Positions 25,601 through 59,100 of a stretch of DNA of 64,000 bases are shown here, one piece after another. Source of the DNA: Anadara kagoshimensis (taxonomy: Eukaryota > Mollusca > Bivalvia > Arcoida > Arcidae). Each line of letters begins with the position of its first letter. The first letter of the stretch is position 1. The position numbers and the translations under genes were made by a program. Below the pieces are notes generated by a model. That model had not been told where the DNA came from. It did not search any database and saw nothing but the letters and a program-made list of their open reading frames with translations. Location of the stretch: NCBI GenBank assembly GCA_021292105.1, contig CM037861.1:30048674-30112673 (forward strand). Reading direction: 5' to 3'.

Positions 25601-27808
25601 TTATGATCCACAGACCATGTGTCAATATCACCGACTTATTCTTCACTTTATAGGGTGATTACACTTGCAATACGTATATTTTGCCTGAAGCCAAGTTCCG
25701 GATTTTTATCTTATTTTTTGCTACCGGTATATCAAATAACCAATGAATTATTTAAGAAAGACTTTGAAATTGTTTTAAATTAGTTAGTTGAAAATAGATA
25801 AAGTGATTTTGAATGCTGCCTCAAAACTATTATTAGTATTAATCTTAAACTTAAAACACATTAAAATCGGTTAAAGAAATCAATACTGTCTATGACCCAT
25901 TTTAAGCTATATGACTAATTTGTCCTGAATAAATTAGGTTTCACCTTTGCAGGAAGAAAAACACATGCAACATGTGCATAGATCAAGTATCAAGGGCAAT
26001 CTTATTGATTTATGCTTCATAACAAAATTTGTAAGTTCACAACAAATTTCTCGGTTTCCACAAATTTACAATTAGTCCCTTTTGAAGGACTTCTCAGTAG
26101 CCAATGACGATTTTGACTATCCGGAATGGAAACATAAAATTTGTAATAAAAGAAAAAAACACATTCTAGTTAATACAAAATGAGTCTTAAAAAATTGCAA
26201 GAGATGTCTAAATCATAGAGGGGGAAACCTTGGTGGCCAAGTGGTCTAAAGTTGAAGTGGATAACAAGTTCACAATGTCTCTCCTCAACTACTTTCAAAT
26301 CTCACTCTAGACATATCCTAGTGTGAGAAAGTCTGTCAGTTCACGTACTGAAGGTTGGTGGTTTTCTCTGGGCACTCAGATTTCCCTCACCATTTCAGAA
26401 CTAACCACCTCAATAGAAGTGACAGAAACTTCACTTGGGCATAAAATCCCATTACTCCACTCCACTCTATTCTAAATTGTGTTAAATTGTGTTATTCTTA
26501 ATTGTGTTTAACAGTGTTAAAAGACATTCACTGGGTAATTTAATAACATCCTCTTCAGACTTAATTGACGTATTGCCGGCCACACCCACAATACTTCCGA
26601 CACTGGCCGCCATCACGGTACCAAAGCAGTGTCAGTGACATCATTAAACCGCAAATTCATGCCGAGTTTTCATTCTTTTTGCGTGTAATTCAAGCATGTC
26701 GACCCTTTGTCGGAACATAGTGGGCATGGCCGGTTATCTGTCAATTGGGAGTAAAAAATTTAGTCAATTATGGTACTTACAGTCTGAAGCACTGTCTCAT
26801 TGCACCTCTGTTGAATGGCTGAAAATGAAATTAACATGTAGATATATATATTTATATATATCTAGGGAATAAAGAGGCAGTGGTGGAAACAACTGTCAGT
26901 CGGAGAGTCTATAACTGGTAACTTTTGGGAAGGACCGGTTTCTTTTTCAATACTCCCCTATATACCACAATAGAAAATGTTGAAATTATCAAACAAGGAC
27001 TGGTTTGAAATTTGTAAAAATTGTGACAATACACTAAAGCGTCATGATACGAGAAGACACATATAGTGATACACATTTGTCTTCCATATAAAACTACTGA
27101 CAAAACTAAAACAGTGATTTTTAATCTTAAAATCAGGATTTCAAATCTCTTATACTCTCTATTACAAGCTGATATGGGACAATATTTTCGACAAGAGAGA
27201 AAAGTTTCATAATACTAAATAAATTCATTATGAACAAATTTTGCATGATTTAATTTTAAAAACTGTATATATCTATTATTTATATATATATCTACAAACA
27301 AGCCATAACAAAAATAAATGTAGTAAAATAAACAAATAAACAAATTTACCTGTTTCTCTATCTTGACTCTGACTTCATCCTTAACCCAGCTCTTTTTGTG
27401 TGGATTATATCTGTGTCTTATACATTCTTCAGTCTCTAGTTCATTAGTCTTGAAATCTGACCATGGATCATGTATTGTTTTAGCCTTCCTTATTGCCTTT
27501 AGCCAGTTCCCATGTGCACGAGTTATATTCACTTTCAAGTTCAAAGCATTTACCTTTGCAACATGAGCATTTACGTTATTCAAGTTATTAATGGTCGCAA
27601 GAGACTTGTTAAGTCTTCTTTGGCGTAATGTCATAAGCGCTTTGGGCTTTTCTTCCGATTTCAACCTTTCCTCTCTTTCAACCTCGCTCTCCGTATCTTC
27701 CCTTTCATCAGATGCATCTGGAGAATATTCACTCTCCTCGTTGTTATTGACAAAATCCTCATCGTCGTCCAAAAATATGGGGAAGATTTCAAAGTCGGAT
27801 TCTGACAT
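1402..27808 (-). CDS. EEF2K: Eukaryotic elongation factor 2 kinase (eEF2K), complete gene, 11 coding exons
   Basis: Alpha-kinase that phosphorylates eEF2 and so slows translation elongation; cytosolic, Ca2+/calmodulin dependent in animals. Eleven exons with GT/AG borders join in consistent phases to 690 codons plus TAA (human protein is 725 aa). In order: acidic N-terminus; calmodulin-binding segment near residues 98-116 (GNWLKAIRKAKTIHDPW); alpha-kinase domain near 145-350 with ATP lysine K209 (MDAKVWGEEYN), catalytic D290 (VVDIQGVGDLYTD) and zinc ligands H276, H328, C330, C334; Ser-rich regulatory linker near 360-444; and C-terminal SEL1-like helical repeats ending MDEEE. A serine at 461 (ARPSCVALE) matches the human S500 region. 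In the nucleotide loop the first glycine of GxGxxG appears as Asn (NDGNLG). Start chosen as the first Met of an acidic open frame; a non-coding 5' exon cannot be excluded. Family identity is very secure. Confidence 0.97.
2013..2191 (-). CDS. EEF2K: EEF2K coding exon 10
   Basis: Encodes EISWEDAFHWYDEALN, MDEGGEFD, then AKQAELLRQGGHGLDKDSER. Vertebrate counterpart: LEALHWYNTALEMTDCDEGGEYD. One base enters and one leaves, consistent with its neighbours. Confidence 0.96.
2813..2937 (-). CDS. EEF2K: EEF2K coding exon 9
   Basis: Begins ECDDNFNRGIDYMMEAAEAG, continues through MLFMARAFETGDNLG and leaves two bases. Helical SEL1-like repeat. Acceptor TTTACAG; donor GTAACT, slightly off consensus. Confidence 0.95.
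3100..3195 (+). repeat. Dispersed repeat R1, copy 1
   Basis: Segment with GGGAAGTGAGACCTGGTGCTCC, here quoted as GGGAAGTGAG and CTGGTGCTCC, and GAGCACCTCCTGTTTGGCTA. Near copies at 17140-17230 (plus), 29640-29740 (minus) and 34495-34640 (minus). Family and full length unknown. Confidence 0.6.
3440..3640 (-). CDS. EEF2K: EEF2K coding exon 8
   Basis: 67 codons, phase 0 to 0: VHHEMAKYHEVGRF, then WESAVFHEEHAADLGELEAI, matching WDQESAVFHLEHAANLGELEAI of vertebrates. First SEL1-like helical repeat. Confidence 0.96.
3825..4065 (-). repeat. tRNA-derived SINE, family A
   Basis: Reverse complement reads tRNA-like head (GGTGGCTGAGTGGTCTAA type), degenerate B box, body ending AGTTTGCCTGC, then the family tail ATATAAGTGAAAGAATCTTG. 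Lies in EEF2K intron 7-8. Confidence 0.75.
4216..4335 (-). CDS. EEF2K: EEF2K coding exon 7
   Basis: 40 codons, phase 0 to 0: EERLAFQKMALQKARPSC then MNMKIGDSILGK. Vertebrate eEF2K has PRASAVALE and KKIGKSILGKV at this point, so the conserved C-terminal start and the S500-like serine are present. Confidence 0.95.
4336..5759. other. EEF2K intron, nothing recognised
   Basis: AT-rich intron sequence. A 113-codon plus-strand frame at 4780-5121 has no recognisable motif and ordinary intronic composition, so it is not called as a gene. Confidence 0.5.
5760..5995 (-). repeat. tRNA-derived SINE, family A
   Basis: Minus-strand copy with tail AAGTGAAAGAATCTTGACTG and head near 5975-5995. Diverged but recognisable along its length. 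Confidence 0.7.
6335..6640 (+). repeat. (TAAA)n microsatellite, interrupted
   Basis: Long imperfect run of AAAT/TAAA units with short interruptions (TTTCTAAAT, TTAACAATAAT). Confidence 0.95.
7220..7364. repeat. Fold-back element with ~55-bp inverted arms
   Basis: Left arm starts ATCAACATTTACCCGTGG and the right arm ends with its complement, CCACGGGTAAATGTTGAT. Arms are nearly identical (one visible mismatch, GGACC against GGCCC) around a ~35-bp spacer. MITE-like; no clear target duplication. Confidence 0.85.
7617..7700. repeat. Perfect 39-bp inverted repeat with 6-nt loop
   Basis: TAAGAAATAACTTTGATATT at the left is mirrored exactly by its complement at 7681-7700. Loop GGGGTT at 7656-7661. 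The lack of mismatches suggests a recent origin or gene conversion. Confidence 0.9.
8148..9020. mobile_element. 873-bp non-autonomous DNA element with CAGGGCTCTAC termini
   Basis: Starts CAGGGCTCTACAATGC and ends with the complement (GTAGAGCCCTG). The flanks share TTGAT on both sides, a possible 5-bp duplication. Subterminal repeats differ at the two ends: GCGAGT/ACTCGC palindromes at 8160-8245, ACTAGCC/GGCTAG palindromes at 8955-8990. No complete protein is visible. A minus-strand frame at 8016-8390 crosses the left end and is not convincing alone. CAGGG ends recall hAT elements, but an 8-bp duplication is absent. Confidence 0.7.
9051..10690 (+). mobile_element. Mollusc-type repeat element with core tandem array
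   Basis: Begins CAAGAGGCCAAGGGGCCACA then TCGCTCACCTGAGC; ends GACGACGACAGACAACGG ... GGCTCAGGTGAGCTAAAAA. These ends are typical of an abundant bivalve repeat. The middle is a ~165-bp tandem array, like the non-autonomous Helentron-related elements described in oysters (from memory; unsearched). It lies directly beside the 8148-9020 element. Confidence 0.75.
9531..10570 (+). repeat. Tandem array, ~165-bp unit, 6-7 copies
   Basis: ATGATTTGAACAAACTTGAA recurs at 9531, 9697, 9863, 10025, 10191 and 10356, with a degenerate copy near 10514. Units alternate between two subtypes (TTTCCTGGCC/GAGGAG and TTTTCTGGCC/GAGAAA), so part of the array spread as dimers. Confidence 0.95.
11394..11648 (-). CDS. 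EEF2K: EEF2K coding exon 6 (regulatory linker)
   Basis: 85 codons, phase 0 to 0. Begins RKSLVLTRIRGVEEHC, matching the TILRGTEEKC segment after the vertebrate kinase domain. A Ser/Pro-rich low-complexity stretch follows (SSSSMFSDSAIDSPTSPS), then RVRFVSESDSS, a basophilic-kinase-like site that may stand for the S6K/RSK-regulated region. That last equivalence is inference. Confidence 0.93.
11945..12105 (-). repeat. GACCTTGACCTTTGACCT dispersed repeat, single copy
   Basis: TGTGACCTTGACCTTTGACC followed by the family body and a CAGACGGACAAATGGATGGA end. Same motif, opposite orientation, as the array at 62937-63490. Lies between EEF2K exons 5 and 6. Confidence 0.7.
12164..12424 (-). CDS. EEF2K: EEF2K coding exon 5 (catalytic core)
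   Basis: 87 codons, phase 0 to 0. Contains FSHFTFERSGHQ, the catalytic VVDIQGVGDLYTDPQIHT strand, the NDGNLG nucleotide loop and the zinc-binding HSHICNEIC segment. Together these define the C-lobe of an alpha-kinase. Confidence 0.97.
12815..13020 (+). repeat. tRNA-derived SINE, family A (partial)
   Basis: Head TTGTCTAAAATGCACATT, B-box-like AGGTTCAAATCTC, then GTGTAAGAAGTTTGTCAG. Includes an internal duplication of the B-box region near 12895-12920. Ends before the usual tail. Confidence 0.65.
13077..13223 (-). CDS. EEF2K: EEF2K coding exon 4
   Basis: 49 codons, phase 0 to 0: VDIFQMYILEF, then HLEHFIEGNYVKYNSNSGF, an alpha-kinase hallmark (vertebrate HLEHYIEGKYIKYNSNSGF). Acceptor CTGTTTTAG, donor GTAAGT. 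Confidence 0.96.
13540..13790 (+). repeat. tRNA-derived SINE, family A
   Basis: GGAGGCCGCAGTGGCCGACT head, GTGTGAGAAAGTCTGTCAGT body, tail AAGTGAAAGAATCTTGACTG, then a (CT)n run. Confidence 0.75.
13830..14001 (-). CDS. EEF2K: EEF2K coding exon 3
   Basis: Encodes KKLSTF through EEYNRHNPPKK, including NYVAKHYIEVVERDVYF and the ATP-contacting lysine in MDAKVWGEEYN. 172 bp, entered with one base and left in phase 0. It is separated from exon 2 by the 12.8-kb intron. Confidence 0.96.
14179..14340. mobile_element. MITE E, copy 1 (undisrupted interior)
   Basis: Shares GGCTACTAATTTCTG, AAAAAGTAACCTATTT and ACTTTAAAAAGGAC with the copy at 34925-35425. It shows the empty site where a Meta-SINE-like element later entered the other copy. 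Left end has GTTTCCAT; the right end looks truncated. Confidence 0.75.
14870..15330 (+). repeat. Degenerate tandem repeat, ~125-bp unit, 3-4 copies
   Basis: The phrases TGGCTGAGGTAT/TGGCCCAGGTAT, ATATACCTG, TCCAACCCA and CTAGATGGCT/CTAGATACAT recur in order. Confidence 0.65.
15536..15705. mobile_element. MITE C copy (CAGTCAAACCTGTC termini)
   Basis: Left end ACAGTCAAACCTGTCAATAA; right end close to its complement (GGCAGGTTTTATTGTATTTGAC split as GGCAGGTTTTATTG, TATTTGAC). Internal GGTGGCCTTTAT repeats. Related copies at 60868-61022 and 61110-61290. Confidence 0.7.
15710..15890 (-). repeat. tRNA-derived SINE, family A (partial)
   Basis: Minus orientation: head GTGCTTTAGACCACTAAGCT (complement of the tRNA-like A-box region) and the body; the usual tail is mostly missing. 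Confidence 0.55.
16150..16315. mobile_element. MITE G copy (AGTAAAACCTCATTATAATG)
   Basis: Starts ACAGTAAAACCTCATTATAA and ends near CCCCTTTATAATGTC. The same family is scattered through the ACSL introns (48031, 50058, 50640-51010, 55471). Confidence 0.6.
16606..16815 (+). repeat. Tandem repeat, ~69-bp unit, 3 copies
   Basis: AATCATCAACATTCAAT ... TTTTTCAGAGGGG ... CATCTAAAACACAATAAA repeats three times. A diverged single copy lies near 18750-18850. Confidence 0.9.
17140..17230 (+). repeat. Dispersed repeat R1, copy 2
   Basis: GGGAGTGAGGTACGGTGCTC and GTAAGCACATCTTGTTTAGC, parallel to copy 1. Confidence 0.55.
17755..18500 (+). repeat. Degenerate tandem repeat, ~120-bp unit, about 6 copies
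   Basis: Recurring order: CAAAAATAATATTTTAGTG, GTACAAA, GAAGTCCTTCAGCTAGATGA, ATCAACCTGC, TGACACAGTAACA. CTAGATGAT-type markers lie near 17830, 17961, 18085, 18193 and 18314. Confidence 0.85.
19075..19175 (+). repeat. SINE family A, 3' part
   Basis: Only the 3' end is present, with GGGAAAGAATCTTGACTGCG. Confidence 0.5.
19180..20425. other. EEF2K intron 2, nothing recognised
   Basis: AT-rich intronic sequence. No exon, repeat unit or inverted termini that I could support. Confidence 0.5.
20430..20715 (-). repeat. tRNA-derived SINE, diverged family A
   Basis: Reverse complement has a head like CCCTTGTGGCTGTGTGGTCG followed by a GTGTGAGAAAAGTTTGATGG body. Clearly diverged from other copies; boundaries approximate. 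Confidence 0.5.
21665..21895 (+). repeat. tRNA-derived SINE, family A
   Basis: GGCCAAGTGGTCTAAAGCAT head, TAGAGTTCAACTCC B box, GTCAGAAAGTTTGTCAGTTT body, tail ATATAAGTGAAAGAATCTGA. Confidence 0.8.
22615..23570 (+). repeat. Complex tandem repeat with ~412-bp higher-order unit
   Basis: Basic phrase: GGTCAAAGCACCATTCCTTG, CACCTATTTATATTTAATCG, GTCAACTTGACTGATCAAA. A second phrase with GAAGGCATGTTTCCTGTTGG follows. GTAGACTG markers near 22766 and 23178 give the ~412-bp period. Confidence 0.9.
23571..25390. other. EEF2K intron 2, only simple low-complexity sequence
   Basis: No gene or defined element. A degenerate GTGCAG-rich patch lies at 24630-24715. Confidence 0.5.
25397..25555. mobile_element. 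Short MITE candidate with CAGGGATG termini
   Basis: Left CAGGGATGAAGCTTAA; right end is the complement CATCCCTG. GGGGCCCAG and its complement recur just inside. No clear target duplication, so moderate confidence. Confidence 0.45.
26225..26470 (+). repeat. tRNA-derived SINE, family A
   Basis: TTGGTGGCCAAGTGGTCTAA head, CTTTCAAATCTCACTC B box, CTAGTGTGAGAAAGTCTGTC body and an ATTACTCCACTCCACTCT end. A nearly complete copy. Confidence 0.85.
26563..26746 (+). mobile_element. MITE D, copy 1
   Basis: Ends AATTGACGTATTGCCGGCCA and its approximate complement (GGCCGGTTATCTGTCAATT). Internal TGGCCGCCATCACGGTACCA and TTTTCATTCTTTTTGCGTGT. Sits about 35 bp from EEF2K exon 2. Other copies at 35968-36177 (inverted) and 46064-46276. 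Confidence 0.8.
26781..26818 (-). CDS. EEF2K: EEF2K coding exon 2 (38-bp micro-exon)
   Basis: Encodes PFNRGAMRQCFR, matching PFGRGAMRECFR of vertebrate eEF2K (the N-lobe glycine-rich strand). Acceptor TTTTCAG and donor GTAAGT flank it. It leaves two bases (CT) that pair with the first base of exon 3 to give Leu. It is too short to appear as an open frame and was found by looking for the missing kinase motif. Confidence 0.93.
27350..27808 (-). CDS. EEF2K: EEF2K coding exon 1
   Basis: Residues 1-153. Opens MSESDFEIF, followed by a strongly acidic stretch (DDDEDF, EESEYSP, EREDTESEVE). The calmodulin-binding helix around W102 and the start of the kinase domain (RHRYNPHKKSW) follow. Donor GTAAAT on the minus strand, phase 0. 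Confidence 0.96.
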
Positions 27809-29740: not shown

Positions 29741-30056
29741 GATTCAGACATGGATTAGTATGTTTGTTTTTATTGATACTAGCAGCGACACTTAATACAG
29801 TATTAATCTTTTTTGAGATGCAAGGGAGAAATCAAAGTTGCCAAGAAAAAGAGATTTTAAAAAGTTATTATGTTCGATTTTTTTCCAAAAATTAATTAAT
29901 GAATTAAAGTAAATTAATAATAAAAATGTTTTAATAATAAATAAAAAAGAAAAAATAACTTGTCATCTTGCTGTCTCTGAACCAGGATATGAGAATTTAA
30001 GACTCTCCCTGTGTCATCCAAGTCACTGAGATAGGATACTTGTGGAAAACCTTTGA

Positions 30057-31530
30057 CTATGTCAGTCCAATCACTGAGAGTAAGGACACAGGCTTTTTGG
30101 CAACACAATTGACTATGTCAGTCCGGTCCCTCGAGAGCAAGGACATAGCTTTGGGGAACACATTTGACTGTGTTAGTCCAGTCACTTGAGAGCAAGGACA
30201 TAGCTTTTGGGGAACACATTTGACTGTGTTAGTCCAGTCACTCGAGAGCAAGGACACAGGCTTTGGGGAACACATTTGACTGTGTTAGTCCAGTCACTCG
30301 AGAGCAAGGACACAGGCTTTGGGGAACACATATGACTGTGTTAGTCCAGTCACTCGAGAGCAAGGACACAGGCTTTGGGGAACACATTTGACTGTGTTAG
30401 TCCAGTCACTCGAGAGCAAGGACATAGCTTTTGGGAACACCATTGACTGTGTCAGTCCAGTCACTGAGAGCAAGGACATAGCTTTTAGGAACACCACTGA
30501 CTATGTCAGTCCAGTCACTTGAGAGCAAGGACAGAGCTTTGGAGAACACCCTTGCCTACGTCAGTCCAGTCATTCAAGAGCAAGGACATAACTTTGGGGA
30601 ACACCTTTGACTGTGTTAGTCCAGTCACTGAGAGCAAGGAAAGAGGCTTGGGGAACACCTTGTCAATGTCAACCCAGTCACTGAAAGTTTAGACAGATGC
30701 TTGGGGGAACACCTTTGACTATGTCAGCAATCTCGCTGAGAGCTAGGATAGAGGCTTGGGGAACACCTTTGACTATGTCAACCCAGTCACTAAGAGCTAG
30801 GATAGAGGCTTAGGGAACACCTTTGACTACTAGTATGTCAACCCAGTCACTGAGAGCAAGGATGGAGCCTTTGGGAACACCTTTGACTATGTCAACCCAG
30901 TCACTAAGAGCTAGGATAGAGGCTTGGGGAACACCTTTGACTATGTCAACCCAGTCACTAAGAGCTAGGATAGAGGCTTAGGGAACACCTTTGACTACTA
31001 GTATGTCAACCCAGTCACTGAGAGCAAGGATGGAGGCTTGGGGAACACCTTTGACTATGTCAACCCAGTCACTAAGAGCTAGGATAGAGGCTTAGGGAAC
31101 ACCTTTGACTACTAGTATGTCAACCCAGTCACTGAGAGCTAGGACAGAGTTTTTGGGAACACCATTCGGCATTGACTATGTCAGCCCACTCACTTAGAGC
31201 TAGGAATGAGCTCTATCATCCTTGACTATATCATCCTCTGTATATGTCAATCCAGGCACAGAGAGCTAGGATAGAGCCTTTGGGACACCTTTGACTATAT
31301 TAACCCAGTTATTGAGAGCTATGTAAGAACCTTGGGGAACAACTTTGTCTATGCAGCCATGTCACTGAGAGCTAGAATATAGAGCCCAAAAAGAGCCTTG
31401 GGGAACACACTTGACTGCATTAACCCAGTCACTGAAAACAAGGACAGAATCTTGAGAAACAACTTTAACTATGTCAGCCAAGTCACTGAGGCGTAGATAA
31501 AGCCTTAGGAAACCCTTGATTTTTGTCAGC
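30057..31530 (+). repeat. 56-bp minisatellite, about 26 copies, with higher-order structure
   Basis: Unit phrase: TTAGTCCAGTCACTCGAGAG, CAAGGACACAGGCTTTGGGG, AACACATTTGACTGTG. Five successive units on the left are spaced exactly 56 bp (30175, 30231, 30287, 30343, 30399). At the right a dimer with an extra CTACTAG and AAGAGCTAGGATAGAGGC recurs near 30780, 30900 and 31020. Open frames across it are a by-product of the repeat. Confidence 0.97.
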
Positions 31531-36853: not shown

Positions 36854-37044
36854 AGATGGATGACAGTGTTTTATTTAGGAAATCAGTACATGTAATAAGA
36901 TAAATGATGTTGGCTGTTGTTTCACAATTGCCCATCTTATGAGTTTGCAGAATTTTAAAGGTTAGGCCTGGTAATGACTGGAAACAGTTGTCATAAGTGT
37001 GTAACTTCACCAATAGGTTTTAATGTCTTTATCAATACATATTA

Positions 37045-37203
37045 TAGTAGAGCAGATAAGTCCATTTTTTTGGCCAAATCGTTCAGTTTGTGATACAAGC
37101 ATGAAACTTGGTGTACATATTGCCCAAGGGTAACTATTAACAAAACACTGTCTAGCCACTCGAACAATCCAATATGGCGGTCAAAATCCAACATGGCCGC
37201 CAA
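37045..37203 (+). repeat. Left terminal inverted repeat of the 6.7-kb transposon
   Basis: Pairs with 43612-43766. Inner part carries CAATATGGCGGTC and CAACATGGCCGCCAA. Confidence 0.85.
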
Positions 37204-37778
37204 CCGGTGTTACAAATCTCAATTTTTCAAATTTCATCATATAATGTTTGATTTTTTTTACTATTGCAATGGCTTTTTAAGATATTTTAGTGTTTTAACA
37301 CTTCCATTTTCAAATAAAAAAGCATTATTCTAATTTTTACCCATACTTCACATATATTATGATACAGTTTATTTTGCGAATAGAGTGGATATCATGCACT
37401 ACCAGGGCACACTGGTGATATTTCACTGCTGTTTAACTCAGCATGGGGTTCAGTGTCAGCTAATTACAATTAGTATCCCAAATGTTATCTAATCCGCCCC
37501 ATTTATGATTAGATAGCCGCACCTGAATTGACAGGATGTGCCAGCGCGGGAGAGCCAAAAGTAGCGGGGCTATAGCTACTTGGATGGTGTACAGATCGCA
37601 CGGGATTTATGACATTGGATGAACGATCGGGCTAGGTGTAGGACTCATGGTACGAACCTAGTCGTATCCCATACCTCAAAGTGCATAGGTATTGTGAATA
37701 GCGCTCAACATTTTGGTAAAAGGCGGTAAAAGGATAAACCCTCAGCCTTCCACCATACGGTAAATAGTGTTTTGAAAA

Positions 37779-38126
37779 ATGTCACAGTCTACCTCACATA
37801 CAAATTGGGACAAATGCTGTCTTTGTCAGACAGACTCGTCTGAGAAACTTATTTCTACTAAAGCTGGATATTTTAATATAGCTCAAAACATTCCACTCTT
37901 CCATGCCATTAATGCTCTACCAATACCTCTGAACCCTGCTAGATTAAATGAAGGAGAGGGTATTGAGGAAACACTGAACACAAATAATGCAAAATATCAT
38001 AACAGCTGTAGGCTTTTGTTCAACAACACCAAATTAGACAGAGTCCAAAAAAGAAAACATCAGTTGAAAGCTGCGAGGAAATTCCCACAAAAGTACGTCG
38101 GATGTCACAAGATTTCAAATCGCTGA
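37779..38126 (+). pseudogene. Transposon protein, N-terminal segment (115 codons)
   Basis: MSQSTSHTNWDKCCLCQTDS, FHAINALPIP, NNAKYHNSC.LLFNNTKL, then a Lys/Arg-rich stretch. CxxC and HxxxC spacing suggests a zinc-binding N-terminus. This frame ends shortly after the family's coding region moves into another frame near 38090-38110, where the next ORF overlaps it. Confidence 0.75.
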
Positions 38127-39142
38127 CCATTTGTTTTTTGTGCGAGAAACACGATTCCTCATCTACACTTAGGCAGGCAATGACAATGAAACTGAATGAA
38201 ACGTTGAACCGGTGTGCGACAACTCTTGAAGATTGCAAACTTCTTGCAAAATTTAGTGCTGGTGATGTAGTTGCACAAGAATTGAAATACCATCCCGCCT
38301 GTCTTACAGCTCTTTATAATAGGGAGAGAGCACATATGCGTATTCTACAGAGTGAACAATCCTCCACTGACTCCCTTGATAAGTTTTATCCTCTGGCTTT
38401 TTCAGAGCTTATAATATACATCATGGATATGAAAGTTGCCAATGAAGAAACAAATCCCATAGTATTCAGACTTGCAGATTTAGTATCACTTTATAAAGAA
38501 CGACTACAACAACTTGGTGTTCTCTCACCAGAAGTTAATTCTACAAGACTTAAGGAGCAAATATTGTCACGTATTCCAGAGCTTGAATCATACCAAAAAG
38601 GCAGAGATATTCTACTTGCTTTTAAGAAAGATGTAAGTTCTGTGTTGTCAGACCTCAACAAATACAGTGAAGCTATCCATCTCGCTAAAGCAGCTCATAT
38701 TATTCGGAAAGAAATGTTGAATCACAAATCTAAATTTAAAAATGAATTTAATAATGAATATGTAGAGAAATCAATACCATCCACACTTCTTCAGTTAGTA
38801 TGCAGCATTGAGCATGGCGTGGATATCAAATCTCATCTTGCTAATGGCATAGTACCATCAGATTTTGCTATGGCACAGTTGTTGCAATATAACTGTTACG
38901 CTAAATACAGAGCAGGTTCTGAATACTGCAGACACTCTAAAGATCGAGAAACACCATTTGCAGTTTATATCGGACTTTTAGTGTTTGCTAAGGTAAGAAA
39001 GAAACAGCTGATCGATATCCTTCATGAACATGGTATCTGCATATCCTATGACAGAGTACTTGAAATATCTGCTCAATTAGGGGAATCGGTCATAAATCAA
39101 TATTTCGAAGAAAAGAAGGAGTTGTATGTCCTCCAGTGCTGA
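38102..39142 (+). pseudogene. Transposon protein, second segment (346 codons)
   Basis: Contains CFLCEKHDSSSTLR (second zinc-like site), LAKFSAGDVVAQELKYHPAC, SELIIYIMDMK, then HSKDRETPFAVYIG and ISYDRVLEIS. Continuous with the preceding and following segments in the family. The frame changes again near 39118-39140, where the 3' neighbour continues in another frame. Confidence 0.75.
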
Positions 39143-39720
39143 GAAAATATCTTTTCACTACTGCGGCGATGGATAACATAGACCATAATCCATCAGCAAC
39201 GACTGCAACTACCTCATTCCATGGTACAAGTATATCTTTGTTCCAACATCCAACTTTTGAAATTCAAGGTGAGATTAGACCATTTATTCCAGTGACAAAC
39301 AGTAAATCAAAACAAGTTCCAGAGCTTCCTGAATCGTTCTCCAATGTGCCACCTGCATTTTTCAAGACAGAGAATCCACAGCCATCAGAAATTGCAAACG
39401 TTCCTAAACCAGTTTCAAGACTTGCTAATATCATGATTCCAGAATACGACTGGCTTCAGACTGTTTATCTGGCTGAAAATATTAATGATGAAGTAAATAT
39501 ATCTTGGTCAGCCTTCCATGCATCCCAGAAAAGGAGTCAAGACTTTGAAATATCTATAACATCGCTTCTTCCTCTCCTGCGAGACCAAGCTCATTCCGTT
39601 GCTACAATAAAACATGTTTTGAACAAGGTCAAAGACAGTGTGGCATTTCTTAATCCAGGTCAAACACCTGTCATTGCCGCTGACCAGCCACTTTTTGCCT
39701 TAGCCAAACAAATCCAATGA
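39136..39720 (+). pseudogene. Transposon protein, third segment, first copy
   Basis: NIDHNPSATTATTSFHGTSI, SLFQHPTF, EYDWLQTVYL, SWSAFHASQ, then FLNPGQTPVIAADQPLFALA ending KQIQ at a TGA. The next codons (HWPDQYGEDKVVIMFGGLH) continue the family sequence in frame. Confidence 0.8.
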
Positions 39721-39815
39721 CACTGGCCAGATCAATACGGAGAGGATAAAGTAGTTATTATGTTTGGCGGGCTTCATATAGAAATGACAGTACTTAAGTC
39801 TATAGGATCTTTGCT

Positions 39816-40666
39816 ATGGCACAGTTGTTGCAATATAACTGTTACGCTAAATACAGAGCAGGTTCTGAATACTGCAGACACTCTAAAGATCGAGAAACAC
39901 CATTTGCAGTTTATATCGGACTTTTAGTGTTTGCTAAGGTAAGAAAGAAACAGCTGATCGATATCCTTCATGAACATGGTATCTGCATATCCTATGACAG
40001 AGTACTTGAAATATCTGCTCAATTAGGGGAATCGGTCATAAATCAATATTTCGAAGAAAAGAAGGAGTTGTATGTCCTCCAGTGCTGAGAAAATATCTTT
40101 TCACTACTGCGGCGATGGATAACATAGACCATAATCCATCAGCAACGACTGCAACTACCTCATTCCATGGTACAAGTATATCTTTGTTCCAACATCCAAC
40201 TTTTGAAATTCAAGGTGAGATTAGACCATTTATTCCAGTGACAAACAGTAAATCAAAACAAGTTCCAGAGCTTCCTGAATCGTTCTCCAATGTGCCACCT
40301 GCATTTTTCAAGACAGAGAATCCACAGCCATCAGAAATTGCAAACGTTCCTAAACCAGTTTCAAGACTTGCTAATATCATGATTCCAGAATACGACTGGC
40401 TTCAGACTGTTTATCTGGCTGAAAATATTAATGATGAAGTAAATATATCTTGGTCAGCCTTCCATGCATCCCAGAAAAGGAGTCAAGACTTTGAAATATC
40501 TATAACATCGCTTCTTCCTCTCCTGCGAGACCAAGCTCATTCCGTTGCTACAATAAAACATGTTTTGAACAAGGTCAAAGACAGTGTGGCATTTCTTAAT
40601 CCAGGTCAAACACCTGTCATTACCGCTGACCAGCCACTTTTTGCCTTAGCCAAACAAATCCAATGA
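39816..40666 (+). pseudogene. Duplicate of the second/third segments
   Basis: The second copy of the 945-bp unit: 39816-40088 repeats MAQLLQYNCYAKYRAGSEYC onward, and 40082-40666 repeats the NIDHNPS segment with one visible residue change (IAADQP to ITADQP). Confidence 0.85.
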
Positions 40667-40705
40667 CACTGGCCAGATCAATACGGAGAGGATAAAGTAG
40701 TTATT

Positions 40706-43204
40706 ATGTTTGGCGGGCTTCATATAGAAATGACAGTACTTAAGTCCATAGGATCTTTGCTGGAAGATAGCGGCTGGACAAGTGCTCTAGTTGAGGCTGA
40801 TATTGCATCTGCTGGAACAGCTGACTCTTTCTTGTCTGCATCAAGTGTAACTAAAACCCGGCAAGCACACCAAATCACAGCATGCTCCTTGTACAAGCTC
40901 CTGAAGGAAGCGTATGATAACTACGAGGAACAAACTACTGATGAACACGTACTGACCTTTGAAAATTGGCGTAATTCAAGAGAACAACAGAGTCCACAAT
41001 TCCAATTCTGGTGTATGGTACTACAGATGGAGCTGATAATTATGACCTTGGTGAGATCATTCCGGGAGGCAGATTTCAAACTTTATAAGGAATCCCTTTA
41101 TGAACTTATGCCTTACCTATTTGCCAATAATAATGTCAAGTATGCACGTTGGCTATCTGTTCATCTCAGGGACATGTTGTGTCTTGCCGATCAGCATCCA
41201 GAAGTTGCCAGGCAGTTCCATGGGGGTAATTTCGTTGTTCATAAATCAGACAGAAATTTCTCTGCTGTTGCAATTGACCAAGCTCACGAGCAAAACAATG
41301 CTATAATTAAAGGAGACGGAGGAGCTGTTGGTCTTACAGAAGACGAAAAAGCTCTTAGGAGATGGATGGTAGCTGGACCTGAGGTAAGTCGTCTTGTCTC
41401 TACCTATGAAACAGTCAGTGGTGCAAAAGATGCAACAAAAAGTACCCGTCACCATGAAGAAGGGGAGACATTCCAACATACCTTTTTTGAGAAAACACAG
41501 AAACTTACCACTGTTATGCGCGAGATGGGTAATCCTTTTGAGGAAGAATCTGAGGATCTTCTTGTTTTGGATACAAAAGACATCGCTGATGCTAGTGTTT
41601 CGCAGTTAATGAAAACACATTATCACAGAGGAAAAACCCAATTTGACTTATTTATGTCAGATCTTTGTAAGGATGCTTCTTCTTTCTATGTTCCTATAAA
41701 GAAAAACTGCATAAAATTCTTCGATCAGCGTTCCAAATCTGACTCAAAAATTACATCCAAAGTTAAACTACTAAAGGACAACTATCAACTTTTTTCTCGT
41801 CTTTTTATCTCCTGTCAAAATAGACAATGCGACTTGAAAGAGTTTTTCAAACATGAAAATCAATCTGTACCAGCTTCACTAAGTGATGGCGGAAAACTCC
41901 GAACATGCTCGAAGTCTGATTTAATTGGTATTCTGCAAGAAACAGTCATGTTGCCTGAAACAAAGCCAGAGGCAGACGCTATTATGATTGATGGTTCGGC
42001 GCTTATAAACTCAGTCCCTCCTCGTGGTGTTAAAACATTTCAGAAATATGCAACTGATGATATTCTTCCGAAGATACAGAGATATAGCTCGGAATACAAG
42101 AGAACGGACTTAGTTTTTGACGTGTATCGAGACTGTAGCCTGAAGTCTGAAGCCAGGTCCAGGAGGGGTAAAGCTGTTAGAAGAAGAGTTACAAGTACAA
42201 ATAAGACACCATCAAACTGGAGGAGTTTTCTTCGAGATAACAGCAATAAAACAGAATTGTTTAATTTTCTTGCTGACAGAGTTTCAGAAATATCTACAGC
42301 CAATACTGTTGTCGTTACAAAAGAAGAACAAGCTATGACAAGTAAAAACAATGAGGAATCTACAAATCTGGATCAAATAACACCATGCACACATGAGGAG
42401 GCTGACACCCGACTCCTCTTACATACTCGCCATGCTGTAGAATGTGGATATAAATCTATAATTATTGAGGCTAATGATACCGATATAGTTGTGATAGCGG
42501 TAAGTTTCATCCCACATTTGAGTCAGTTGGGTTTAGAAAAATTGTGGGTCACCTTTGGGAAAGGAAGCAAACTTCGGTGGATTCCAGTACATGATGTCGC
42601 TTCCATAATCGGACAAGAGAAAACTCGCAGTATTCTTTTCTTCCATGCATTCAGTGGATGTGATGTTGTATCTGCTTTTCATGGAAAAGGAAAGAAGACT
42701 GCCTGGCAAACTTGGAATGTGTTCCCTGAAGCATCAACTGTCTTTGGCAGATTGAGTGATAGTCCATTAGAGGTAACAGCAGAGGATATGGCAACATTGG
42801 AAAGATTTGTTGTATTGATGTACGATAGAGCACTACCAACTCCATCTGTGAATGAAGCCCGGCTTGAACTTTTTGCTAGAAAACAAAAACCATATGACAT
42901 GATACCACCAACTGTAGCGGCCCTTAAGGAACATGTTAAACGCGCTGCATTTCAGGCGGGACATATATGGGGGCAGTCGTTGATTAAGGAGCCTGAGAGC
43001 AAAAGCCCTTCAGACTGGGGATGGATGAAACAAGAGGACAACACCTGGAAAGTGTTTTGGTCTAGTTTAGTACCAATAGCTAAAAGCTGTCAGGAATTGA
43101 CAAAGTGTGGCTGTAAAAGAGAGTGCATTGGCAGATGCAAATGCTATTCTTTCAGCCTTGCATGTACTAAACTTTGCAGTTGCCCATGCCCATGCCAATC
43201 GTAA
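40706..43204 (+). CDS. Transposon protein C-terminal ORF: putative catalytic core, FEN1/PIN-like nuclease and CXC domain (832 codons)
   Basis: Longest ORF in the window and intact. Residues 1-230: FGGLHIEM, SGWTSALVEADIAS, RQAHQIT, ARWLSVHLRDM, IDQAHEQNNAIIKGDGGAVG, RRWMVAGPE; with the upstream DQPLFALAKQ this could be an RNase H-like transposase core (inference). Residues 425-665 carry acidic motifs in FEN1/XPG order: IDGSALIN (D429), VFDVYRD (D472), CTHEEADTRLL (E564-D567), EANDTDIVVIA (D591, D593) and HAFSGCDVVSAF (D653), then GKGKKTAWQTW. Residues 801-830: CGCKRECIGRCKC...ACTKLCSCPCPC, a tesmin/TSO1-like CXC domain that should bind DNA and zinc. The ATG shown is simply the first Met after the upstream stop; the native protein is longer. 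Probably not expressed here. Confidence 0.85.
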   Translation: MFGGLHIEMTVLKSIGSLLEDSGWTSALVEADIASAGTADSFLSASSVTKTRQAHQITACSLYKLLKEAYDNYEEQTTDEHVLTFENWRNSREQQSPQFQFWCMVLQMELIIMTLVRSFREADFKLYKESLYELMPYLFANNNVKYARWLSVHLRDMLCLADQHPEVARQFHGGNFVVHKSDRNFSAVAIDQAHEQNNAIIKGDGGAVGLTEDEKALRRWMVAGPEVSRLVSTYETVSGAKDATKSTRHHEEGETFQHTFFEKTQKLTTVMREMGNPFEEESEDLLVLDTKDIADASVSQLMKTHYHRGKTQFDLFMSDLCKDASSFYVPIKKNCIKFFDQRSKSDSKITSKVKLLKDNYQLFSRLFISCQNRQCDLKEFFKHENQSVPASLSDGGKLRTCSKSDLIGILQETVMLPETKPEADAIMIDGSALINSVPPRGVKTFQKYATDDILPKIQRYSSEYKRTDLVFDVYRDCSLKSEARSRRGKAVRRRVTSTNKTPSNWRSFLRDNSNKTELFNFLADRVSEISTANTVVVTKEEQAMTSKNNEESTNLDQITPCTHEEADTRLLLHTRHAVECGYKSIIIEANDTDIVVIAVSFIPHLSQLGLEKLWVTFGKGSKLRWIPVHDVASIIGQEKTRSILFFHAFSGCDVVSAFHGKGKKTAWQTWNVFPEASTVFGRLSDSPLEVTAEDMATLERFVVLMYDRALPTPSVNEARLELFARKQKPYDMIPPTVAALKEHVKRAAFQAGHIWGQSLIKEPESKSPSDWGWMKQEDNTWKVFWSSLVPIAKSCQELTKCGCKRECIGRCKCYSFSLACTKLCSCPCPCQS

Positions 43205-43611
43205 TTAAGTTACATAGTTCTTATTTCAATACCTTTAACCATGTTTATTCATTATTATAATCTACTTGGGCGCCATTTTGGAATATTCAACATTTTGATC
43301 GCCATCTTGGTACATGACGGCCATTTTTCTTTTCATGTAGGCAATTCATTTCAACAGTAACAACAATAATTCACAGTCTGAAGTAAAATAGGAAACAAAT
43401 ACTAGCGTCATCACCTGAATGATTGTTGTAATGCAAATATCTCTTTTTAATGGTATTTGGCGGCCATTTTGGATATAAGACGCCATCTTAAAAATCAAAA
43501 TAGCAAAGATTTTGATCACTTTGATTAGGTAGGTAGTCTAGCAGCCGATGTTATACAAATACAAATACAAACCTAATTTAGAGGATAATGTTACAATACT
43601 ACTGTCGATAT
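43205..43611 (+). other. Transposon 3' subterminal region with GCCATnTTG motifs
   Basis: Non-coding tail with repeated GCCATTTTGGAA, GCCATCTTGG, GGCCATTTTTC, GGCCATTTTGGATAT and GCCATCTTAAAA. These motifs match the YY1-like core. Confidence 0.7.
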
Positions 43612-43766
43612 CACACTTTTGGCAGCCATCTTGAAAAATGGCCGCCATATTGGAATTCAATTTGGCTAGATACAGTTTTGCAAACAGTGACCCATCCTCA
43701 ATAACTGTGCCAAGTTTCATGCTTGTATCACTATCTGAACGATTAAGTGACTTATCTGCTCTACTA
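43612..43766 (-). repeat. Right terminal inverted repeat of the 6.7-kb transposon
   Basis: Complement of the left arm: CCAAGTTTCATGCTTGTATC and CTTATCTGCTCTACTA at the outer end, with AAATGGCCGCCATATTGG inside. Confidence 0.85.
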
Positions 43767-44444
43767 TTACTAGTATAGACAAACAACATTGACCTGTCCT
43801 CTTGACCTTTCATTAGGAATATTCATATAGGAGGGTCCACCCAATATATAGGTAGAATTCACAGTTAATACATATGCATGTTGACCATGATTAGTGTTCA
43901 CTTCAATATGCTGAATATACTGTATATGCATGATCCCTATTACAGGTACTAAAATTTACTTGTCAATATGAATATTTAAAACAAAGGTCAAGCAAACAGG
44001 TCATTGTTGTTTGCATATATGCAAGTATTCTTGCTAGAAAATTAGATGTATGTTTGTTTGATTAAAATAACCTGTTGGAATGGTCTATACTGTCATGTAA
44101 GCTTGTTGACATTGACAGATTTAAAGTCTTAAAAAATATTTATGTGATAGCTTTGAAGGGGGTTGACAGATTTTCCTCTACATGTGGCCTGTTGGCCAAT
44201 TTTGACAACTTTGTTATTGAAAGTTTTTGTGTTTTCATTGTACTTGTTATTGTGTTGAGGAAAAGTTAGTCACAACAAAAAGTTCCAAAGTTCAAAATTT
44301 GACATATGAATTGCATGCATGCAGTCATTACCAGTCTATGTGTGAGTGTATGTGGGACAAACAAAAACTAACATCAGAATTTGGTGGGTTACATTGTTGT
44401 GTTCTACACTGCTGTTCCTAAAATAGGAGGAAATTCTTTTCTAA

Positions 44445-50100: not shown

Positions 50101-53100
50101 TTTAGCATTATAAGGGGTTGTTGATTTATATAGGAAGGCTTTTCAAGGGAAAAAAAAATCTCATATATTTTGGGACCTCGAAAACAATGTAAAAAACTCA
50201 GGTACAAAAGTGATCGCTGTGCATTATAACAAGGTTGTACTTTAGTTTAATTTTTATAGAGCATAGAAAAATAGATGCTGTGCTATGACTATGAGAGGTC
50301 TATCAAGATAAACATATATAGAAATATCTTTTAGGACTTCAAAATACTATGGCAAAGAGTTGAGTGAGTTGAGTAATGGTGTTTAATGTCCCAGTCAAGA
50401 ATATTTCACTTATATTGAGATGTCACCAGCTATAGGCAAAAGTGCAGAAATTTTGCCTTTGCATTGCACTGACGGCATTATACAGCAGGGATCTTTATCG
50501 TGCCACACCTACCATGACACGGGACCTCATTTATTCCCATCTGAAAGAACCATGACTTTCATTTTTTTGTAGTGCTTGGCGAAAGAACAGTCACTTCCCA
50601 CTTTCAAGTTTTTGGTCAGATCCGGTTGGACTATGACCAAGAGTATGATTCAAAGTGATCATTGGGCATGATAACAAGGTTTAATGTTGTTTAAATTCCA
50701 TTAAGCATAGAACAATACTTGCCCTGTCATGAGAGGCTTTATATCAAGAAAAAACATAAAAGTAATATATTTTAGGACTTCAAAATGTACATGTACTACT
50801 GTGAAAATTCAGGTGTAAAAGTGACTATTGGGCACAATAACAAGGTTTTACTGTAAGTAAAATTTTACAGAGTATAGAAAAATAGTTGCTATGCTGCGGG
50901 GGAAAAAAACCCAACATTTTGGACTTCGAAATTCTATGCCAATAATTGAGGTTACCTCAGGTGGCTAAGTGACTATGAGGCATTGCAGCAAGGTTGTACT
51001 GTACCAAAGTTTCATTTTCATAGAGCATTATAAGAAAAAATAAGTTCTTTGTTCTAAAACAATGAGAGCAGAAAAAATTGATTTTATTTTGTTATATGGT
51101 AATTCTATGTTTACGACATGGTGGTGGTTATTAAGAGCTTATGTTCATCCTTCTCTTTCATTGATCAATTTGTATTGATTAATCTCATTTGTCAGTAGTT
51201 ACAGAAATTACAGAAATTACCAGTATATTTTCTAAATAATTTATCATAAACACGTTAAATGTGGTCCATTCTAAGGCTATTAAGTAAAGGTAGAAAAGGT
51301 TTTTTTCACCTAATTACTGGTAGGTGGAGGTCTATAGTATCTGTCTGTAACTTATTGATTTCAGTCACATTATAAATATTTTTTGAAAAATTAAAAAATT
51401 TAAATTGATTTTTTTTAATTCATCATTTCATGGAAAGCATTTCTATTGAAAATGTCATTCATTGTTAAGTGACTGTCTTTGAAATGCATTTACAGATAAA
51501 AGGTCTTGTCACGGTCTAGGTTTGAATCCCAGTATAATAAAGATTGTCAGTTTGTTTCCTAAAGGATGATGGGTTTCTCTTTTCACTCTGGTTTCCCCCA
51601 CCATACATGAAACTGACTGTCTCAATATATAAGAATGGTTGTAAAACTCTTGTTACTCAACTTACTCTACTCTGTGGTTGGTAAATAAAGACTATGCAAA
51701 TTCCTGCAACTTGGGAATATTCCCACTAAGAAGAGGGGGGCCCCAATGGCTGAATGGTAATATTCCCACTACGAAGAGGGGGTCCCAGTGGCTGAGTGGT
51801 AATATTCCCACTAAGAAGAGGGGACCCCAGTGACTGAGTGGTAATATTCCCACTAAGAAGAGGGGACCCCAGTGACTGAGTGGTAATATTCCCACTAAGA
51901 AGAGGGGGCCCCAGTGGCTGAGTGGTAATATTCCCACTAAGAAGAGGGGGCCCTGGTGGCTGAGTGGTAATATTCCCACTAAGAAGAGGGGACCCCAGTG
52001 GCTGAGTGGTAATATTCCCACTAAGAAGAGGGGGCCCCAGTTGCTGAGTGGTAATATTCCCACTAAGAAGAGGGGGCCCTGGTGGCTGAGTGGTAATATT
52101 TCCACTAAGAAGAGGGGGGGCTCCAGTGGCTGAGTGGTAATATTCCCACTAAGAAGAGGGGGCCCTGGTGGCTGAGTGGTCTAAACATGCACTTACATAT
52201 TACAGCACCTGTCATGGGCTAGGTTTCCATCCCACCCAGGAAAGATCCTAGTGTGAGAAGGTTTGTCAGTTTCTACAGGTGATCCAGTTTCTTCCACCAT
52301 CCCTGAACTGACTGTCTCAATATAAGTGAAATAATCTTGACTGGTGTATAAAACTGAATTAAAGGTTACCCCACTCTTCACTTGCATTTAGAAGAAATAA
52401 CTAAATTTTTAGTAAAATGCTAAGTTGACTTACTCCACTGGAAAAAAATTCTGCCACTAGATGGAAACTTTAACATTTTTTCTCTGTTTAATCAACTGTT
52501 TGATTTCTGTACTTTAAGGGGAAAGACAGAGCCAGAATATCAAAACTGTGTAAAAATGGTGAATTGTTGGAATATGTTAGTGAAGATGTTAGAACGTTAC
52601 ATGAAGCTTTTTTGAATGGTGCAAGATTGTCAAGTAAGTTCGGAGTATTAAATAAAATTTCTATGTACAGTCAAACCCGCCTTTAACATGTTAAAGGCCA
52701 TCTATATATATTAGGGCCACTCACATTTAAAAAACCAAGGCCCCTATGATGCTATTTTGGTGTACAACAATATGTTACCATTTAGTCTTGGAAGAAATTA
52801 AAAAACAAGATCCCATATCTCAATGCACACTTAAGACACCTCTGTAGAGTTTGGGAAAATGTACCTGCTTCAACAGATGCTAATCATTAGAAGCCATTGA
52901 AACAGATTCAGCAAAGAATGCTTAAAAAGTGGGCCACTTTTGACTGACTGCTACAACAGATGCTCACCACTAAAGCCATTCAAAGGATGCTAAACTAAAA
53001 CTAAATTATCACTGAAAGCATCATATCAGAATTTGTAGACTGCATTTGATGGTAAGCAAGTTCCAGGAACGAAATTTACCTTGGTATGTCTGTGACTGAA

Positions 53101-56100: not shown

Positions 56101-59100
56101 ATGTTTTACTGTCACTAATGACAAAATTTATAAAGCAAAAGTTTAAATTTTCAAATCAAAATTGGCTTGCTTTGATACATATGGTCTTAAGTCTAACATG
56201 ATGAAAATTCTATAAAATCATCCGTATGTGTGCAGACTGTTTTTTCAGTAAGATATTGATGGGACGTAAACCACCATTCAGTTAGTCTATCAACCAGTCT
56301 TAGACTAGGAACAAATTCAGAAAATGTGACTTGAAGCGGCATTTTTTAGTAAAAGTTGGTAACATGCTTTCCTAACATAATTCGAGGGTGCTGAATTCAA
56401 AAATGGCGGATACCAAGCTAAATTTTGAGTTTTTAAACCCATAATTCCAAAAACAAAATGTCGACTAGAATTAATGATGTGCCAATGCAAAAAATGTTAC
56501 TTGGGTTGACAAATATTAGTAAAAGTTAGTAACATGGTTTATTTAACATAATTCGAGGGTGCTGAATTCAAAAATGGCGGAACCAAGCTCAATTTGAGTT
56601 TTTGAACCCATAATTCCAAAAACAAAATGGCGCTAAAATGATGTGTACCAATGCAAAAATGTTACTTGGTTGACAAATTTTAGTAAAAGTTGGTAACATG
56701 ATTTATTTAACATATTAGAGGATGGCAAATTAAAAAATGCGGATACCAAGCTCAATTTTGAGTTTTTGAACCCATAATCCAAAAACAAAATGGCGGCTAA
56801 AATTAATGGTGTACCAATGCAAAAATGTTAGTTGGGTTTCAATTTTTAGTAAAAGTTGGTAACATGATTTATTTAACATAATTCGAGGGTGCTGAATTCA
56901 AAAATGGCGGATACCAAGCTCAATTTTGAGTTTTTGAACCCATAATTCCAAAAACAAAATGGCGGCTAAAATAATGGTGTACCAATGCAAAAATGTTACT
57001 TGGGTTGACAAATTTTAGTAAAAGTTAGTAACATGATTTATTTAACATTATTAGAGGATGGTAAATTAAAATGCAGATACCAAGCTCAATATTGAGTTTT
57101 TGAACCCATAATTCCAAAAACAAAATGGCGGCTTAAATGAATGGCGTACCAATGCAAAAATTGTTACTTGGGTTGACAAATTTTGGTAAAAGTTAGTAAC
57201 ATGATTTAGTAAACATTATTAGAGGATGGTAAATTAAAATGCAGATACCAAGCTCAATATTGAGTTTTTGAACCCATAATTCCAAAAACAAAATGGTGGC
57301 TAAAATTAATGTTGTACCAATGCAAAAATGTTAGTTGGGGTTTCAAATTTTAGTAAAAGTTGGTAACATGATTTATTTAACATAATTTAAGGATCCTGAA
57401 TTCACATATGGCGGATACCAAGCTCAATATTGAGTTTTTGAACCTATAATTACAAAAAACAAAATGGCGACTTATAGTGTACTAATTCAAAAATGTTACT
57501 TGGGGTTTCAAATTTTAGTAAAAGTTTGCTTATTTGGCATAATTCGAGTTTGCTGTATTTCAAAACTGACGGATACCAAGTAAAATTTTGAGCTTTTGAA
57601 CACATAATTCCGAAAACAAAATGACTACTGTTTAAATTTATTGGCATATAATTTCTCAGTGTTATTTAAGTTCCATGTGTTAGCAAAAGATGGTACTTTG
57701 TGACATTTCAGCATGACTTGCAGTCTTGGGGTTGTTACATTAAAATGAAAAAGGCTAATAAACTGAAGTATAAATGTTTAAACCAAATTTAAAACAATTT
57801 CTAAAAATAAAGTGGTGGCTATAGTTAAGTGTTTGTTCATTATGTGTGCCTTTTGCATTGTACACTGATAAATCTACATGACTAATAAATTGATTTCATA
57901 ACCAAAACCATACTGAAATACTGCTCATGGTGTGGAATTACCAGTCAAAATGAAACTTGTGTTTGAAATGCAAAAGAGCATATTCCAGAACACTTTTTAT
58001 ACAGAGTTTGCCACATGTTCTTGCAAAATAGTATGTAGAACCCGTGGTTGTCAATGTCAAAATACCAAATTACTATGCGTGTCGTCGTGCGTTAAACTTT
58101 TAAGAATGATATTGCTTTAATAGGTAGAATCACAACCATTATTTAAAAAAACATATATAGATTGATACCTTGTGAACCTCATAATATGTAGTGGTTTGAA
58201 TTTTGACGGTAATATTGCATTATTTTACAACTTCTATACAGTTTTGCCAGCGATGTTTAAGGAGCTCAATGCAACTTTTAAATAATTCATTTTCTTGAAA
58301 ATTCAGGAAGTCCTCCAATGAATATATAACATCATCATATCAATATAAAAGTGGGTATAAATGTAAACAGCAAGACTGGTGTGCAAGCTTAAGCAAAAAG
58401 CTGGCCACTCAATTTAAAATTCACAATCATTAATTGCAGTCAAGGCAATGGCAGAATTGTGTCAGTGGAGTAAGACACCTTTACTGAGTTTTCCACAACA
58501 CTTGAGTTGGATATTTTTCCGTAACGAAAAGTAATGCAAACTATGTGCCATTTATTTTTTGTCCCTTTTAGAAATAATCTAAATGTACCATCAGTATCTA
58601 AGTTAACTGTGGTGATGGAACAGTCTTTCTCTGCCTTCTTTGGCGGAGATGAACCAGGTGATTCCATTGTTTAGACTGTTATTTGGGCTCAAGGATGTAA
58701 TATGTACCATAGAAACAAAGCTCTTATGGGAGCTAGCAGGATACCACTAAAATGTTTAGATTAACACGCGACAAAGTGCATCTTTTGTGCTTCTGATTAA
58801 TTGTCAGAAGCGCAACAGACCCAAAGCTTTTTTATTGCAAGATGTCAGAATAGAAAGTACTGTTCTCTGTGAAATGTCAACTCACTGCCCTTATATTTTC
58901 TGTAACTCAACTGTCAGTCATAACAATACCATGGTTTTTATCTACGTTTCCACAATTTTAAAATTATTAGTGGCCAAACTTTCATAATTTGTGGATATGT
59001 CTAGAGTATTTTTGTTTTTACAGATTTGCAAAAACAATTTTTTTTGCTTTTTGAAAGAAAATAGTTTCTCAAAAATGAGCAACCAATGGTGATTTCGGCT

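Follow-up and report, generated by a model that had tools for sequence, protein, structure and literature searches.

A 6,722-bp element spans positions 37045-43766 of the 64-kb window (the whole stretch of DNA that we analysed), and it is probably a decayed, non-functional cut-and-paste DNA transposon of the AcademX type in an animal genome. The element has imperfect inverted ends with TTA on either side, a broken gene, and, within the open part of that gene, an ordered series of motifs that resemble those of FEN1/XPG nucleases (Table 1). We infer that it belongs to AcademX because its target-site duplication (TSD), its terminal inverted repeats (TIRs), and its nuclease motifs all agree with that group. 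It is thus a probable further member of a known group of transposons, and a fairly ordinary find.

Table 1. Features of the element and its flanks, in window coordinates
Feature	Position	Strand	Basis or remark
Left target-site duplication, TTA	37042..37044	.	sequence
Left terminal inverted repeat	37045..37203	+	outermost 18 bp match those of the right end exactly
N-terminal coding piece 1, 115 aa, with CxxC...HxxC zinc-binding-like motif	37779..38126	+	ORF list, motif search
Coding piece 2, 346 aa, in another frame, with second CxxC...HxxC motif and a frame break at its end	38102..39142	+	
946-bp tandem duplication, first copy	38864..39815	+	self-comparison
Coding piece 3, first copy, DNIDHNP ... 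DQPLFALAK, ending in TGA	39136..39720	+	ORF list
946-bp tandem duplication, second copy, 99.8% identical	39810..40761	+	self-comparison
Coding piece 3, second copy, ending in TGA, in the same frame as the 832-codon ORF	40082..40666	+	
Last 832 codons, intact, from the end of the putative transposase core through the FEN1/XPG-like region to the Cys-rich tail	40706..43204	+	ORF list
Weak match to Pfam DUF6589, profile positions 217-401 of 410	40838..41419	+	E = 2.5e-4, 20.3 bits, cut-off 27
FEN1/XPG-like motif series: IDG, FD, EEAD, NDTD, GCDx6GxGxKxA	41987..42703	+	motif search
CXC-like Cys-rich tail	43106..43201	+	pattern search; no Pfam match
Right terminal inverted repeat	43619..43766	-	blastn, end comparison
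Right target-site duplication, TTA	43767..43769	.	sequence

Ends of the element and its surroundings

An earlier reading of the bare letters (the sequence-only reading) had proposed inverted termini with TTA on both sides, and this was borne out. In blastn the two TIRs align with 73% identity across 160 columns (E = 4e-20), and the local alignment of the two 220-bp ends has a score of 158, as compared to a maximum of 69 for random pairs from the window (n = 1984). Read inwards, both ends of the element are TAGTAGAGCAGATAAGTC; the end sequence is given as TAGTAGAGCAG. Within the window, a 17-mer from the TIR is found only at the two ends of the element (2 matches with up to 3 mismatches, versus 0.12 expected), and the 64-kb window contains no second copy of the element. 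The TTA directly abuts each TIR, and the 3-bp TSD, being known from this one copy, counts as weak evidence.

Further inside the ends are shorter repeats. We counted four related patterns. One of them, GCCATNTTG, has two copies near the left end, on the minus strand, and five near the right end, on the plus strand. It is absent from the coding part and occurs 9 times in the remaining 57 kb. This mirrored layout suggests that these are subterminal repeats and candidate binding sites for the transposase. A shorter pattern, GCCATNTT, has a less orderly distribution (10 occurrences in the element and 26 outside of it), and one of its copies at the right end is in the opposite orientation. A satellite at 56344-57623 carries a similar motif, AAAATGGCGG, and may add to the count of GCCATNTTG outside the element.

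The 64 kb contain seven ORFs of at least 130 aa, and a fragment of an alpha-kinase is present; on these grounds we reject a phage or bacterial origin for the window.

The broken gene and its putative transposase core

The sequence-only reading described one long coding region whose C-terminal 832 codons are intact. These last 832 codons are indeed open, but the gene as a whole is broken because of a duplication, a TGA, and frame changes. First, a 952-bp stretch within the gene is duplicated in tandem, with 99.8% identity and a spacing of 946 bp. TTTGCT is common to the junctions, as expected for a microhomology-mediated duplication; it is also possible that the duplication is an artefact of the assembly. 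Second, a TGA closes both copies of a 194-aa frame (at 39720 and 40666), ahead of the 832-codon piece. Third, the frame changes near 38.1 kb and again near 39.13 kb. We take the coding pieces to be remnants of a single ancestral frame, since broken, and, unless the breaks are assembly errors, this copy of the element is unable to make the full protein.

The two CxxC...HxxC motifs near the N terminus look like zinc-binding modules, and a Cys-rich finger has been described for Academ proteins. Further along, the region with DQPLFALAK and DQAHEQNN may be part of a putative second active site, which would be RNase H-like, and our guess is that the upstream DNIDHNP is the first acidic strand. There are candidate acidic residues in DNIDHNP, ADQPLFALAK, and DQAHEQNN, from which the catalytic residues would be drawn, and the encoded protein putatively has a DDE core.

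Over this putative core there is a weak match to Pfam DUF6589, which falls below the curated cut-off and pairs residues 45-238 of the 832-aa ORF with just the C-terminal part (half) of the profile. The E-value varies with the piece that is used as the query (0.0024 for the whole ORF and 8.9e-4 for a 463-aa piece), and DUF6589 is not listed when the 1040-aa read-through is the query. The DUF6589 profile gave no signal in one archaeal genome or in the controls, an uninformative result, and a literature search found no paper on the function of this family. Pfam scans up to E = 10 turned up no transposase family, including those with DDE domains (e.g., PIF/Harbinger), with HMMER's filters discarding most matches above E of about 0.1. 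Pfam scans of the encoded protein gave no match to helicase families.

Nuclease-like motifs and the Cys-rich tail

In the 832-aa ORF, IDGSAL, FDVYRD, EEADTR, NDTD, and SGCD are at residues 428, 471, 564, 590, and 650. The element has both this order of acidic motifs and GxDx6GxGxKxA in common with FEN1/XPG nucleases. As a yardstick we took 30 loci that match XPG_I and come from the same phylum as the archaeal record of L004 (38 of 41 genomes matched). The FEN1 reference set is the 24 proteins that came through a filter (6 were left out), and the control ORFs are 424 ORFs from 34 loci, all of at least 100 aa.

GxDx6GxGxKxA is present in the query and in 17 of the 24 archaeal FEN1 proteins, and shuffling the query 20,000 times never produced it. 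Among the 424 control ORFs, 20 have it, and every one of these is in a FEN1 locus (the 17 of the filtered set, along with those of L026, L032, and L033). The ordered pattern of all five motifs occurs in the query, in 18 of the 424 control ORFs (in FEN1 loci only), and in none of 20,000 shuffles, and it flatters the query because we designed it knowing the query sequence. With the last motif kept in place, 2 of 20,000 shuffles contain the four motifs upstream of it. On their own these four motifs are permissive, as 26 of the 123 ORFs that reach 250 aa have them (FEN1 ORFs counted in). The distance from DxD to GxD is 62 residues in the query versus 63 in the FEN1 of L007. In contrast, the gap between the second and third motifs is 93 residues in the element versus 73 in the FEN1 of L007, and inspection by eye shows H in the element where FEN1 has the first Glu of its ExE motif.

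The order and spacing of the motifs make a FEN1/XPG-like nuclease, as proposed in the sequence-only reading, the likely interpretation of this region, but the profile and structure comparisons gave negative or uninformative results. First, when we used hhalign to compare the 347-aa region to the 24 archaeal FEN1 proteins, the score was 15.6, which is at the level of shuffled sequences (mean 15.8 and maximum 26.2 across 60 shuffles). Among the controls, the N-terminal 347 residues of the ORF scored 15.9, the reversed control 13.1, and coding piece 2, an unrelated part of the element, 21.2. The alignment to FEN1 fell on the SGCD segment. Second, of unbiased position-specific scoring matrices for the five FEN1 motifs, only the last one picked the site that had been proposed, with a score that 22 of 300 shuffles also reached, and the remaining four picked other places. 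Third, AlphaFold models that were built without an alignment had pLDDT of 36.2 and 36.3, which is too low to use. A Foldseek search with the first of these poor models (pLDDT 36) gave nothing at E up to 0.001, and the 255 matches that it gave with the limit at E = 10 are uninformative (the best had E = 0.34 and probability 0.06).

Nuclease families gave no match above the cut-off in Pfam, and there was likewise no convincing match in NCBIfam or PHROGs (weak matches only) or in sequence searches of the PDB (single matches at E = 0.54 and E = 1.9). RNase Y was matched weakly in Pfam (E = 0.14 and 0.051) and in NCBIfam (E = 0.14 and 0.019), and with E of 0.019 at best we take this for chance.

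The ORF ends with a Cys-rich tail, C-x-C-x3-C-x3-C-x-C-x6-C-x3-C-x-C, that begins at residue 801 of 832. When we shuffled the whole ORF 20,000 times, and its last 60 residues another 20,000 times, the search pattern for the tail never arose. The tail had been called a CXC domain, and its C-x-C spacing is close to that of the Tesmin/TSO1 CXC consensus, but the Pfam CXC family does not match it, so we describe it as CXC-like.

Probable relationship to AcademX and proposed roles

According to PMC10045372, AcademX elements encode a nuclease and have TSDs of 3 or 4 bp, while AcademH elements, from the same superfamily, encode a helicase and have TSDs of 9 or 10 bp; the authors remark that TSD length "seems related" to the encoded helicase or nuclease. 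Because AcademX encodes a nuclease, a transposase combined with a nuclease is a known plan (PMC10045372). A RecQ helicase in Academ is mentioned in PMC3627910. The 3-bp TTA and the nuclease motifs of our element match AcademX, as compared by description and not by sequence. The nuclease of AcademX is reported to be of the XPG type; our literature search found no paper with both "Academ" and "XPG". We ruled out AcademH because the element has no helicase match and its TSD is too short. Also, the length of the element (6.7 kb) is in line with Academ elements in bivalves, which are numerous and long (mean of 5565 bp in a curated set; PMC10294476). The CXC-like tail is absent from the AcademX descriptions that we found. 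The sequence-only reading had offered "Academ-like or a sister superfamily": the TIRs, the FEN1/XPG-like motifs, and the 3-bp TSD fit AcademX, and a sister superfamily is not needed.

Among the alternatives, the one that survives best is a separate and unnamed superfamily or lineage, outside of Academ, whose protein joins a CXC tail to a DDE core and a FEN1/PIN-like nuclease. We consider this unlikely: no curated family matched above its cut-off and the link to AcademX rests on description rather than on direct sequence comparison, but the TSD length and the nuclease content both fit AcademX, and Academ elements are long and common in bivalves (PMC10294476).

Another possibility is that the element belongs to some other superfamily with 3-bp TSDs (PIF/Harbinger, Zator, and the like; Zator TSDs are 3 bp according to PMC10045372) and that the FEN1 motifs are coincidental. 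This seems distinctly improbable: the profile tests for the nuclease were negative, as it would predict, but no transposase family was listed in Pfam even at E up to 10, and among the 424 control ORFs the order of the motifs was limited to FEN1 loci. TTA is a target of Harbinger, but PIF/Harbinger and Zator-type proteins are usually far shorter than the element's protein. Finally, the 832 open codons would suit a domesticated host gene instead of a mobile element, but this is hardly credible given the TIRs and TTA duplication at the ends and the breakage of the gene by the duplication, the TGA, and the frame breaks.

Our searches for relatives covered viral, prokaryote, and phage collections. 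Protein and degenerate-motif searches of viral contigs found no relatives, and tblastn found no match in phages. A motif search of contigs from prokaryote genomes gave four bacterial or archaeal loci, which we take for chance matches as the best tblastn E-value was 0.063. The element's proteins are presumably like the common uncharacterised proteins of marine invertebrates.

Returning to AcademX, we propose that the intact element would have encoded one long protein with four parts, and we infer their roles, including the fold and the role of the nuclease, from the motifs. First, the paired zinc-binding-like motifs at the N terminus would probably bind the ends or DNA. Second, an RNase H-like DDE core would cut and join the ends. 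Third, the XPG/FEN1-like nuclease would probably trim flaps or the non-transferred strand, at excised ends or at target gaps. Fourth, the Cys-rich tail would bind DNA. Insertion gave rise to the 3-bp TTA duplication.

As one more inactive element that is likely to be AcademX, this find has modest weight. It bears on the question of what role a FEN1-like nuclease plays in transposition when it is part of the same protein as a DDE transposase. If the element did represent a separate lineage, then it would be one that brings its own enzyme for processing ends or gaps.

Mirror repeats and an internal duplication

Both non-coding ends of the transposon carry GCCATNTTG repeats in mirror arrangement (window 37170-37197 and 43272-43652), which are possible binding sites for the transposase. 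The transposon gene itself contains a 946-bp tandem duplication (38864-40761), accompanied by TTTGCT microhomology. Because the copies are 99.8% identical, this would be either a recent event or an assembly artefact.

Tandem arrays

The 64-kb window also holds five large tandem arrays, and the one at 51712-52180 underlies a repetitive 137-aa ORF (51692-52105).

ORFs and tandem arrays in the window
Feature	Position	Strand	Detail
Alpha-kinase gene fragment	12014-12436	-	Pfam Alpha_kinase, E 2e-29
Second ORF, putative eEF2 kinase exon	27215-27808	-	Sole match YL1, E 0.0015, below the YL1 cut-off
Tandem array	9528-10456		Period about 166
Tandem array	30039-31205		Period about 54
Tandem array	51712-52180		Period about 42
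Tandem array	56344-57623		Period about 168
Tandem array	62918-63482		Period about 96

Position relative to a kinase gene

The ORF that matches Alpha_kinase is a piece of an alpha-kinase gene. Both ORFs in the table resemble eEF2 kinase exons, which would place the transposon upstream of the eEF2 kinase gene.
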